In this document: positions 1 through 47,697 of the stretch, piece after piece
Layout: every line of letters begins with the position of its first letter
How positions within the stretch are numbered: the stretch's first letter is position 1
Assembly: GCA_040753135.1 (NCBI GenBank)
Contig: JBFMGR010000003.1
Span: 14,532 to 62,228, forward strand
Source of the DNA: Patescibacteria group bacterium
GTDB taxonomy: Bacteria; Patescibacteriota; Minisyncoccia; UBA6257; Brennerbacteraceae
Direction of reading: 5' to 3'
Length of the DNA stretch: 47,697 nucleotides
Notes under the pieces: model-generated
What the model was told of the DNA's origin: nothing
Databases searched by the model: none
Seen by the model: the letters and a program-made list of their open reading frames with translations, nothing else
Translations under genes and position numbers: made by a program

Positions 1-25
1 TGCCCTCCAAGGAGGTGGGCACAAA

Positions 26-499
26 ATGAAAAAGATAATTACTCTTCTTTTTTTAATAGCTTTGGCAACTTCTGCCTGCGGCGCAGGTGCGCCGCAGGCA
101 GAAGTGCCGCCCTTCAAGTTTCAAGTGGGGCTTGAAGGGCCCACGCCCCCTGTCTTGGAGGCAGGGGCTTTTCCGCCCCCCAATCAAGTTGGGGCGGAAC
201 AATTACCTCTGGTACTCAAAGAGTTGGAGTACCGGATAGGGCTACTCCCGGGCGGCCAGGGCCAGGCCTTATTAAAGGCCGGCCGGGAATTTCACAATAA
301 AATCCTGGCCCCCGCAGCAGGTCGGTCTTTGCCGGCCGTAACCGCGGCCCAGGCTTTAAAGGCCAAGTACGCATTTTTGCTTGGCCTTTTAAAGGAAATC
401 GCCTCGGCAGAGTTTGTTCTGCCGGCGGTGATTCCTATTTATGTTTGCCCGAGCGGGATAATCGTCCCGCCAGGGCAAAATTGCCCGATCTATTATTAG
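26..499 (+). CDS. Small secreted or lipoprotein-like protein with hairpin-tiled coding sequence
   Basis: A 157-residue ORF starts at an ATG preceded by a strong AAGGAGG (10-16). The N-terminus (MKKIITLLFLIALATSAC) looks like a signal peptide with a weak lipobox ending at Cys18, so an exported, possibly lipid-anchored protein is likely. The rest is rich in Pro, Gly, Ala and Leu and has two Cys near the C-terminus (VCPSG and QNCP). I recognise no family. The coding DNA is much more G+C rich than its neighbours and consists of about ten successive inverted repeats (for example 68-85/88-105, 109-118/131-140, 171-179/191-199, 354-367/380-394, 444-450/473-479). The SD itself lies inside a hairpin at 1-21. 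A terminator follows the stop. The DNA may act as a structured RNA as well as, or instead of, a coding sequence. Confidence 0.6.
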   Translation: MKKIITLLFLIALATSACGAGAPQAEVPPFKFQVGLEGPTPPVLEAGAFPPPNQVGAEQLPLVLKELEYRIGLLPGGQGQALLKAGREFHNKILAPAAGRSLPAVTAAQALKAKYAFLLGLLKEIASAEFVLPAVIPIYVCPSGIIVPPGQNCPIYY

Positions 500-505
500 G
501 GGTCA

Positions 506-534
506 AGAGCCCGACGTTTTGCGTCGGGCTTTTA
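506..534 (+). terminator. Intrinsic terminator after the first gene
   Basis: A perfect 9-bp stem (agcccgacg at 508-516 with cgtcgggct at 522-530) closes a 5-base loop and runs into TTTT. It ends the transcript of the hairpin-tiled gene. Confidence 0.9.
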
Positions 535-4522: not shown

Positions 4523-5626
4523 ATGTCTTTATCTATCGGTATCGTCGGTTTGCCCAATGTTGGCAAATCAACATTATTTAATGCGCTTTTGAAAAAACAA
4601 GCTGCCTTTGTGGCGAATTTTCCTTTTGCGACAATTGAGCCGAATGTTGGCATTGTGCCGGTGCCGGATGAACGGTTAATAAAATTAGCTGAATTAATCA
4701 GGAATTCTGAAAGCTTAGATTGTCTACCGCCAGCAGTGCCGGCTGTGGTTGAGTTTGTTGATATTGCCGGCTTAATTGCCGGCGCCCACCAGGGAGCTGG
4801 CCTGGGCAATAAATTTTTATCGCATATTCGGGAAGTTGATGCGGTTTGCCATGTGGTTCGGGCTTTTCAAGACGAGAATATTATTAAAGAGGGAAGCGTT
4901 GATCCGGAAAAAGATTTTCAAGTGATTGAGACCGAGCTTCTGCTGGCAGATCTACAGACTTTGGAAAAGCAAAAAGATCCGGGCAACACGCCGGACAAAG
5001 AATTAAAACAGCGTTGGCAAGCGGTTTTAAAGTTGAAACAGGGATTAGAAAAAGAGGTCCCGGCAAGGGAAATTGAATTAAACGAAGAAGAAAAAAAGAT
5101 TTCAAGAGAATTTCATCTTTTGACTGCCAAGCCAATTTTGGTTGCTTTGAATGTTGGTGAGGCGGACTTGAAAAACGCCGCTCAATTGGAAGAACGATAT
5201 GCTTTAATTTTTCAGTTAGAGCCGGAGCAAGTTGTGGCAATTAGCGCCAAGACCGAAGCCGAATTAGCTGATTTATCTGAATCAGAGCAAAAAGAATATC
5301 TGGTCTCATTGGGCCTGGAAAGCACAAGTTTGGATCGGCTGATAAAAAAGGCGTTTTCAACTTTAGGGTTGATGACATTTTTAACCGCCGGAGAAAAAGA
5401 AGTCCGCGCTTGGACAATCAAACAGGGCGCAAAAGCGCCTCAAGCCGCTGGAGCCATTCATACTGATTTTGAAAAAAATTTTATCCGAGCCGATGTGATA
5501 AACTGGAAAAAATTGATAGAAGCTGGCGGCTGGCAAAAAGCCAGAGAAAAGGGTTGGATAAAGACTGAAGGCAAGGAGTATCTTGTTCAAGAGGGGGATG
5601 TGTTGATTATTAGGCACGGGGCCTAA
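4523..5626 (+). CDS. ychF: Redox-regulated ATPase/GTPase YchF
   Basis: YchF (EngD, OLA1) is a ribosome-associated P-loop NTPase that prefers ATP in studied cases. The 367 residues hold the Walker A GLPNVGKSTLFNAL at the N-terminus, the switch II DIAGLIAGAHQGAGLGNKFL, the NVGEADL element at the G4 position, a helical insertion rich in EEKK, and the C-terminal TGS domain (FLTAGEKEVRAWTIKQGAKAPQAAG). The length is typical (about 360). No SD is present; a CATAAT lies 11 bases before the ATG. A terminator follows. Confidence 0.97.
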   Translation: MSLSIGIVGLPNVGKSTLFNALLKKQAAFVANFPFATIEPNVGIVPVPDERLIKLAELIRNSESLDCLPPAVPAVVEFVDIAGLIAGAHQGAGLGNKFLSHIREVDAVCHVVRAFQDENIIKEGSVDPEKDFQVIETELLLADLQTLEKQKDPGNTPDKELKQRWQAVLKLKQGLEKEVPAREIELNEEEKKISREFHLLTAKPILVALNVGEADLKNAAQLEERYALIFQLEPEQVVAISAKTEAELADLSESEQKEYLVSLGLESTSLDRLIKKAFSTLGLMTFLTAGEKEVRAWTIKQGAKAPQAAGAIHTDFEKNFIRADVINWKKLIEAGGWQKAREKGWIKTEGKEYLVQEGDVLIIRHGA

Positions 5627-11201: not shown

Positions 11202-11237
11202 TAAGGACATCGCAAGTCCTTAGGCCTTGCGATGTCG
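11202..11237. repeat. GACATCGCAAGTC hairpin repeat, copy 1
   Basis: taaggac-atcgcaa-gtcctta (11202-11222) is an inverted repeat, followed by ttgcgatgtc (11227-11236), the same core in the other orientation. Related copies lie at 12203-12227 and 12718-12785. Confidence 0.8.
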
Positions 11238-11282: not shown

Positions 11283-11519
11283 TCAGAGGCGTTTGATCAT
11301 TGCTTCATCTCCTTGGCGGCAGAACAAAAATGTTCCGACGCCAATGGTGTTTAGCACAATTAGCGGCCCCCAGAGTAGCAAAAACTCTGGGACCATCAAG
11401 GTAATATCTCCTTTGGAAAAGGAGCAGGCGCCACCTTGGCAGACGCCTGTGATTGTTTTATAGCCCAACAGGACTAAAACATCCACTAGCCCTGTTAAGG
11501 ACTGGATAAAAATTTTCAT
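11283..11519 (-). CDS. Small membrane protein, SD-led and hairpin-packed
   Basis: The 78-residue ORF begins MKIFIQSLTGLVDVLVLLGY and has a second hydrophobic stretch (MVPEFLLLWGPLIVLNTIGVG), so two membrane segments are likely, with two Cys (CQGGAC) in the loop. A strong AAGGAGG precedes the ATG on the minus strand (cctcctt at 11527-11533). The coding DNA holds at least five successive inverted repeats: 11313-11318/11339-11344 with an inner 5-bp stem, 11369-11376/11384-11391, 11408-11414/11418-11424, 11425-11430/11444-11449 and 11467-11472/11491-11496. Function unknown. Confidence 0.6.
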   Translation of the reverse strand: MKIFIQSLTGLVDVLVLLGYKTITGVCQGGACSFSKGDITLMVPEFLLLWGPLIVLNTIGVGTFLFCRQGDEAMIKRL

Positions 11520-12202: not shown

Positions 12203-12227
12203 TCTTACGACTTGCGATGTCGTAAGA
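12203..12227. repeat. GACATCGCAAGTC hairpin repeat, copy 2
   Basis: tcttacgac-ttgcgat-gtcgtaaga is a 9-bp stem around the core in reverse orientation. It begins right after the zinc-ribbon stop and may serve as a terminator, though no T-run follows. Confidence 0.75.
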
Positions 12228-12717: not shown

Positions 12718-13086
12718 TAATCTAAGGACATCGTATTAATCTAAGGACATCGCAAGTCCTTAGATTAGACTTGCGATGTCGTAGGCCGGCTGTTTTTAAA
12801 GCCGTTTTCTGTTAAAATTTAGATAATTCATAATTTTTGTTGGAAATTATCTCGCTTCGTCTCGCTTGCGAGATCTGGCGCAGCTACGACGAGATCTGGC
12901 AAAGCCAGAAAAATTGTCTTGTTTTGTTGGATCCCTTGCGGGATCCTCACACCGTGTTGAAAGTCTTTATATAGTTTTTCTCTTTCATTTTGAGTTGGTT
13001 TTCTGTTAAAATTTAAATTAGTTTCATAATTCTTGAGTATTTATGATTCATTGGAAATTAGAAATTGGAAATTAGGAATTTTCAAT
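12718..13086. repeat. Gene-free repeat region
   Basis: No gene is visible. The stretch holds a tandem taatctaaggacatcg (12718-12733 and 12737-12752), a 12-bp-stem hairpin taatctaaggac/gtccttagatta (12737-12767), the reversed core gacttgcgatgtcg (12768-12781), the repeated gagatctggc (12870s and 12890s), the palindrome ggatccc/gggatcc, and two copies of gttttctgttaaaattta about 200 bases apart. An AAATTAGAAATTGG spacer precedes the flippase ATG. Confidence 0.7.
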
Positions 13087-29580: not shown

Positions 29581-29724
29581 ATGGAAAAAAATAAAATCAA
29601 GAATTTTTTGGAGTCAGTCTTAGACTGGCTCCTGATTTTTATTCTTTTAGGGGGATTAATCTACACAACATTACGGGTCCTGGCCGACAATGGCTGGGAT
29701 CTGGCTCGGGTTCTGGGCTGGTAG
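29581..29724 (+). CDS. 47-residue single-pass membrane protein, SD-led and hairpin-packed
   Basis: The ATG lies 5 bases after AGGAG (29571-29575). The peptide is MEKNKIKNFLESVLDWLLIF followed by ILLGGLIYTTLRVLADNGWD and LARVLGW: a charged start and one membrane segment. The codons for LESVLDWL form a 10-bp hairpin (29610-29619 with 29623-29632). The last codons and the stop form a perfect 13-bp stem (29707-29719 with 29723-29735). A terminator follows. Its own promoter, SD and terminator make it a complete tiny unit. It could be a structural membrane peptide or a toxin-like peptide; nothing in the sequence decides. Confidence 0.55.
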   Translation: MEKNKIKNFLESVLDWLLIFILLGGLIYTTLRVLADNGWDLARVLGW

Positions 29725-43928: not shown

Positions 43929-44081
43929 TTACTCCACCTCTTTCCAACTTTCTGGACAGGGTGGAACTACATTTGGGTATTTGGGGATTTTTTTGCGGGC
44001 TTCTAAGATAAATTTTAGAAGCCCACTTCGCCAAAGGGCGAAGGTCAAAACCGCAATGATTACAACCCCTTCTATAGACAT
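43929..44081 (-). CDS. 50-residue membrane protein, SD-led and hairpin-packed
   Basis: The ATG at 44081 (MSIEGVVIIAVLTFALWRSG) is chosen because AAGGAGG lies 5 bases before it on the minus strand (44087-44093). One membrane segment is followed by a basic, then Pro-rich tail ending ESWKEVE. The DNA has three consecutive hairpins: 43933-43938/43960-43965, 43997-44006/44015-44024 (10 bp) and 44026-44032/44037-44043. Its SD lies over the stop region of the upstream small gene, so the two are likely translationally coupled. Confidence 0.55.
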   Translation of the reverse strand: MSIEGVVIIAVLTFALWRSGLLKFILEARKKIPKYPNVVPPCPESWKEVE

Positions 44082-44091
44082 ATTTTCCTCC

Positions 44092-44274
44092 TTATGTTTC
44101 CGGGTCATTTTCATGACCCGCCATAGAAATAAAAAATAAAGTCAACCCGATTGCAATGCTGATCGGGAAGACTATTCCCGAAAGCCATTTTGCCTGCGGA
44201 AACAGCAGGCAAAAAATGGCTTCAATGATTATTATTGATAGCCCCAAAACAAATGGGGCATCTTTTTTGCTCAC
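44092..44274 (-). CDS. 60-residue two-segment membrane protein, SD-led and hairpin-packed
   Basis: A GTG at 44274 follows AGGAGG by 5 bases. The peptide (VSKKDAPFVLGLSIIIIEAI FCLLF...) has two membrane segments and a short acidic end (GHENDPET). Hairpins lie at 44101-44108/44113-44120 (perfect 8 bp), 44146-44151/44162-44167, 44183-44197/44205-44221 (about 15 bp with a bulge) and 44241-44246/44254-44259. First gene of a two-gene minus-strand unit; function unknown. Confidence 0.55.
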   Translation of the reverse strand: MSKKDAPFVLGLSIIIIEAIFCLLFPQAKWLSGIVFPISIAIGLTLFFISMAGHENDPET

Positions 44275-47607: not shown

Positions 47608-47661
47608 CATTTGGTTTAATTTATGCTATAATTATTCAGCACTTCTTCTCCTTCTGAAGGA

Positions 47662-47697
47662 GGGGGGGGGGGGGGGGGGCGGGGGCGCCCCCCCCCA
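47662..47697. other. Poly-G/C contig-end artefact
   Basis: A run of G from 47662, broken by one C, then gcgcccccc, is unlike anything else in the window and lies exactly at its end. It is most likely a sequencing or assembly artefact. Confidence 0.85.

Follow-up and report, generated by a model that had tools for sequence, protein, structure and literature searches.

Is a reading frame that folds almost from end to end into consecutive hairpins a coding message selected for its RNA structure, or is it a structured RNA that merely happens to contain an open frame? The question is raised by the first 533 nucleotides of the window, by which we mean the whole 47,697-nt stretch of DNA that was analyzed (Patescibacteria group bacterium, GCA_040753135.1, contig JBFMGR010000003.1, positions 14,532 to 62,228, forward strand; GTDB lineage Bacteria; Patescibacteriota; Minisyncoccia; UBA6257; Brennerbacteraceae). 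The host is an ultra-small bacterium. An earlier note, made from the sequence alone, had described about ten consecutive stem-loops in the 474-base ORF, and the predicted fold contains about 12 local ones (Table 1). When the pairing span was limited to 70 nt or less, nearly all of ORF 26-499 from nucleotide 64 onward folded into hairpins, and the first codons, which encode the signal peptide, were predicted to form only a weak A/U-rich stem. The perfect repeats of 18, 10, and 9 bp, the nested stems of 7 + 7 bp, the Shine-Dalgarno (SD) sequence within a hairpin, and a terminator-like hairpin after the gene were all found. The 14-bp stem placed at 354-367/380-394 also exists, but its extent had been overstated; the arms are 355-367/380-392, with one mismatch and a perfect core of 10 bp. 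The G+C content is unusually high, as had been claimed: it is 0.546 for the ORF and 0.563 at third positions, the latter reached by 0 of the 112 long genes sampled.

Table 1. Features of the hairpin-chain gene, other strong-SD ORFs of the window, and dispersed palindromes (window positions unless a contig label is given)
Feature	Position	Strand	Remarks
5' hairpin UGCCCUCCAAGGAGGUGGGCA	1..21	+	predicted fold; contains Shine-Dalgarno AAGGAGGT at 9-16
157-aa ORF, putative lipoprotein, MKKIITLLFLIALATSAC	26..499	+	lipobox Cys codon 77-79; ~12 local stem-loops throughout
Stem-loop 1	64..108	+	20 bp in fold, incl. 18-bp perfect inverted repeat 68-85/88-105
Stem-loop 2	109..140	+	14 bp with 3 G-U; arms 109-118/131-140, 10 bp perfect
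Stem-loop 3	145..168	+	10 bp
Stem-loop 4	171..199	+	9 bp perfect, 171-179/191-199
Stem-loop 5	208..236	+	10 bp with 1 G-U
Stem-loop 6	246..288	+	outer helix 11 bp
Branched stem	300..357	+	inner hairpin 320-337; predicted fold
Stem-loop 8	355..392	+	12-13 bp, one mismatch
Stem-loop 9	393..436	+	18 bp with 2 G-U; predicted fold
Nested stems	444..479	+	7 + 7 bp; arms 444-458/465-479, 15 nt at 87%
Terminator-like hairpin and T run	505..533	+	
78-aa membrane ORF, SD AAGGAGG	11283..11519	-	synonymous-shuffle z -3.9 to -5.8
47-aa membrane ORF, 7-nt SD match	29581..29724	+	z about -4
50-aa membrane ORF, SD AAGGAGG	43929..44081	-	z -3.8 to -5.4
60-aa membrane ORF, GTG start, 8-nt SD match	44092..44274	-	z -6.0
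Palindromes with core GACATCGCAAGTC / CTTGCGATGTC	window 11206-11236, 12203-12227, 12737-12780; L012:3352-3400, 4559-4608		

The earlier note had proposed that the fold be compared with codon-preserving shuffles, and by this test the ORF is far more stable than its controls. ORF 26-499 folds at -255.9 kcal/mol, compared to -177.4 ± 7.3 for 300 synonymous-codon shuffles that keep both the protein and the codon counts (z -10.8, where z-scores can change by one or two units depending on how many shuffles are made). Such an energy below synonymous shuffles is what marks coding sequences selected for local RNA structure. Against 300 codon permutations (mean -168.5 ± 6.7 kcal/mol) the z was -13.1, and when no pair could span more than 70 nt it was -10.2. 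Region 1-540 as a whole reached -291.2 kcal/mol vs -200.5 ± 7.1 for dinucleotide shuffles (z -12.8), and 0 of 100 shuffles were equally stable. Ordinary genes of the host genome and its family, sampled as pieces, gave a mean z of -0.39 (n=110, sd 1.09, minimum -3.67), and Escherichia coli genes, including lpp, gave a mean of -0.6 by the same measure (n=26). These results confirm that the hairpin chain at 26-499 is real and beyond chance.

The frame itself has the marks of a gene. It has an ATG start behind a perfect SD at normal spacing, its codon-usage log-odds are highest in its own frame among all six, and the probability of ~156-157 open codons by chance at such a composition is about 0.002. 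The N-terminus, MKKIITLLFLIALATSAC, looks by inspection like a lipoprotein signal with a lipobox cysteine; the NCBIfam matches to the signal region are weak and below cut-off. In a single-sequence AlphaFold model, the protein is a predicted three-helix bundle (residues 60-126, block pLDDT mostly ~70-88 and about 80-88 for the three helices). A coding frame is thus favored by the SD, the start codon, the putative signal, and the codon usage. The same signals, with the open frame and the helix model, make it very improbable that the locus is a structured non-coding RNA whose reading frame is incidental. That reading would account for the extreme fold energy and the lack of a detected protein homologue. 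A structured non-coding RNA would be expected to belong to a known RNA family or to lack coding signals, and Rfam gave no match above the gathering score inside ORF 26-499. Elsewhere in the window, an L10 leader (RF00557, 46.9 bits, above gathering) was found at 740-848, preceding rplJ at 906-1451, apparently for ordinary ribosomal-protein autoregulation.

No homologue of the 157-aa protein was found in 60 relatives, in 244 genomes of the order, or among GTDB contigs, phages, and viral contigs. The protein had no Pfam family, no NCBIfam match over the cut-off, and no PDB match, either by sequence or by fold from the AlphaFold model. We also considered whether the hairpins are a repeated palindromic element of the Rickettsia type. 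This was rejected after a DNA search of the genome returned only the locus itself, its assembly overlap, its own palindrome, and chance matches. An apparent second copy just upstream of the window, comprising the first 35 codons of ORF 26-499, lies beyond a 100-N scaffold gap flanked by exactly 127 identical bases (L003:14305-14531). The same exact 127-base duplication occurs at a second 100-N gap (L017:16167-16520). Both copies are therefore assembler overlaps, and the hairpin-chain gene is single. Both gaps sit at strong perfect hairpins.

The genome does have palindromic repeats of its own. Palindromes that share the core GACATCGCAAGTC / CTTGCGATGTC recur between genes in several arrangements and form a dispersed palindromic repeat family (Table 1). 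Three near-perfect palindromes, TGTCTACTA..TAGTAGACA (L012:3462-3500, L012:4674-4708, and L015:2990-3028), have identical arms and two self-complementary centers, ACTATGCGATCGCATAGT and TCTGTCCGATCGGACAGA, so that the center is compensated. In addition, long G and C runs form a GC-only inverted repeat beside a 10-N gap at window 47660-47697 and at L013:14800-14844; this resembles an artefact of assembly or sequencing.

Other genes of the genome share the excess structure. When ORFs of the window and of about 190 kb of sampled stretches were scanned, ORF 26-499 ranked first, and the next three places went to other window ORFs, all short membrane ORFs with a strong SD (Table 1). A soluble member, L012:3641-3922, also showed the excess. 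The scan also covered all AAGGAGG..ATG sites. Only 27 AAGGAGG-N4-11-ATG sites were found in the genome, and many ORFs behind them were structured (L034, z -7.3; L023, -6.4; L021, -6.1; L032, -4.0). A set was then defined solely by the perfect AAGGAGG SD. Its mean z was -3.12 in the host genome (n=20, 50% below -3), -2.13 in five genomes of the same family (n=83), and -2.22 in three genomes from other families of the order (n=15). A separate gene-calling test of the set excess in the relatives gave p=8e-7, in an analysis where several tests were post hoc and the gene caller and terminator detector were home-made. The extremes in the relatives included G001 L086:15734-16300, G002 L092:16687-17112, G002 L093:18567-18776, and G004 L052. 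Two further observations came from these sites and calls. The top-scoring called ORFs without an SD, such as L076:12127-12501 in G003 (z -10.9), are possibly misread non-coding RNA genes, and an identical pair of strong-SD sites near two contig starts (G000:C5:341-527 and G000:C10:54-240) is probably a duplicated contig end.

Membrane or exported members of the set were more structured than soluble ones (z -3.11 vs -1.78, p=0.001), and ordinary genes showed no such difference; in all these set comparisons the effects of a strong SD, of shortness, and of isolation cannot be told apart. A terminator-like hairpin past the stop codon was seen in 76 of 102 members vs 108 of 242 ordinary genes, suggesting that set members tend to end their own transcripts. 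Same-family genome G002 has a lipoprotein ORF directly upstream of rplJ, as in the window; the SD of this ORF also lies within a hairpin, and its region has a z of -8.7. The similarity of its product to the 157-aa protein is confined to the signal region (E 0.006), and by location it is a possible positional counterpart of the hairpin-chain gene. Three genomes carry homologues of a PHA_gran_rgn-like protein (a sub-threshold Pfam match), each behind a strong SD, with z-scores of -6.4, -5.8, and -3.0. The stems of these homologues are visibly different when the predicted folds are compared by eye, which suggests that total structure is selected and not one recognized motif. ORF 26-499 seems to be the extreme of a scattered group of short, strong-SD, mostly exported genes whose messages appear to be selected for heavy folding.

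Palindromes could also arise at the DNA level, through template-switch mutation or poor hairpin repair in fast-evolving, weakly constrained orphan genes, with RNA structure as a by-product. The perfect pairing of several stems, the weak constraint on orphan genes, and an antisense z nearly as strong (-7.3 vs -8.3) are what this explanation would predict. In the host genome, however, the set showed a sense-over-antisense stability bias of -0.89 beyond shuffles (p=0.001; +0.17 and not significant in ordinary-gene controls), and the stems of the set had 17 G-U vs 4 A-C oppositions (p=0.007). Neither the sense-strand bias nor the G-U excess was significant in the relatives, so the argument for selection at the RNA level over the DNA level is only moderate. 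Pairing across 84 members was mostly below that of shuffles near the start and above it from about +30. A purely mutational origin also does not account for this relatively open start region, for the association of structure with a perfect SD and membrane products, or for the lack of repeat copies elsewhere in the genome, and we consider it quite unlikely. Overall, the interpretation in the earlier note is partly supported. Of its two alternatives, a coding mRNA selected for RNA structure is the one backed by the shuffle excess, the strand and G-U bias of the host genome, and the recurring gene set.

What such structure might be for is less certain. The explanation that we prefer, at a probability a little short of even, is that short autonomous mRNAs are selected for bulk structure, which would probably shield them from single-strand nucleases such as RNase Y. 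Region 1-533 would be transcribed as a short unit of its own that encodes a small lipoprotein, and synonymous and probably amino-acid choice may have shaped its coding sequence into consecutive local hairpins. These hairpins would form during transcription and close again after the passage of sparse ribosomes, so that the decay endonuclease RNase Y would meet little single-stranded RNA. The genome encodes both RNase III and RNase Y; the latter has a hydrophobic segment at its N-terminus and is predicted to be membrane-anchored. RNase Y of Bacillus subtilis is described as a membrane-anchored enzyme that starts mRNA decay (PMC7029143, PMC11313650), and the E. coli transcriptome as spatially organized, with inner-membrane-protein mRNAs singled out (PMC4874777). 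Messages for exported proteins would be translated at the membrane and would thus lie near the nuclease. The predicted helices do not exceed about 20 bp, which may limit attack by RNase III, and the strong SD would give ribosomes entry to an otherwise too-folded message. We infer the protection from decay by hairpins from these features together. A broader form of this idea, an order-wide hardening of short, strong-SD, mainly membrane or exported mRNAs into hairpin chains against membrane-anchored RNase Y, through bulk structure and not motifs, is more tentative and rather doubtful.

The main rival to shielding is that the structure tunes translation, with slowed ribosomes aiding the co-translational targeting and folding of small membrane or exported proteins and with the strong SD and the SD hairpin setting the initiation rate. 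This would fit the greater structure of the membrane and exported members and the SD hairpins of both the ORF 26-499 gene and the G002 lipoprotein gene; in UTR folds, the SD core was mostly paired in 38 of 102 members. However, the structure spans the whole ORF instead of sites past the signal or membrane segment, membrane genes outside the set have no excess, and soluble members are structured too. We therefore regard translation tuning as unlikely, though a serious competitor. The DNA-level origin discussed above is a weaker one, as is the suggestion that ORF 26-499 is just the extreme tail of a weak general selection for local coding structure, with no special role. Such selection is widespread (PMC6544989), and the mean z-scores of ordinary genes here (-0.4) and of E. 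coli genes fall on the same side of zero. A z near -11 is nevertheless far beyond the 110 controls, and the extremes cluster among short, strong-SD genes in several genera, which makes a mere tail improbable.

If shielding is correct, one coding sequence would be protein and shield at once, and the level of shielding would be readable from the sequence. The strong-SD small genes and the ordinary genes of the same genome would then provide a clean natural set for relating coding structure to mRNA lifetime, in mostly unculturable bacteria whose gene regulation is poorly known.

Several known systems resemble this gene in part. Type I toxin mRNAs such as hok are small, structured, and have a strong SD and hydrophobic products, and some members of the set with 30-60 aa look similar. 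Those toxins, however, are under about 60 aa, and the hairpin-chain ORF encodes 157 aa. The palindromic elements of Rickettsia likewise place palindromes inside a reading frame, but they are repeated copies, and the hairpins of ORF 26-499 were found nowhere else in the genome. The E. coli lpp mRNA is classically described as a stable, hairpin-rich lipoprotein message, and it resembles ORF 26-499 in the small putative lipoprotein, the short monocistronic transcript, and the terminator of its own that are predicted for the latter. The coding sequence of lpp, in contrast, has a z of only -1.1 by the same measure, far weaker than that of ORF 26-499, and this counts against a shielding reading modeled on the stable, structured lpp mRNA. 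The closest precedent is the selection of coding regions in bacteria for local RNA structure (Katz and Burge 2003, cited by PMC6544989; Gebert et al. 2019, PMC6544989). It is described there as a modest tendency across the genome, affecting about 2.5% of the ORFs of bacteria in Gebert et al. ORF 26-499 also beats its synonymous shuffles. It differs in its z near -11, in being a chain of local hairpins, and in belonging to a concentration of structure in short, strong-SD, mainly membrane or exported genes. Thus, selection on coding structure is known, and what seems to be new is the strong-SD small-gene set and structure of such extremity.
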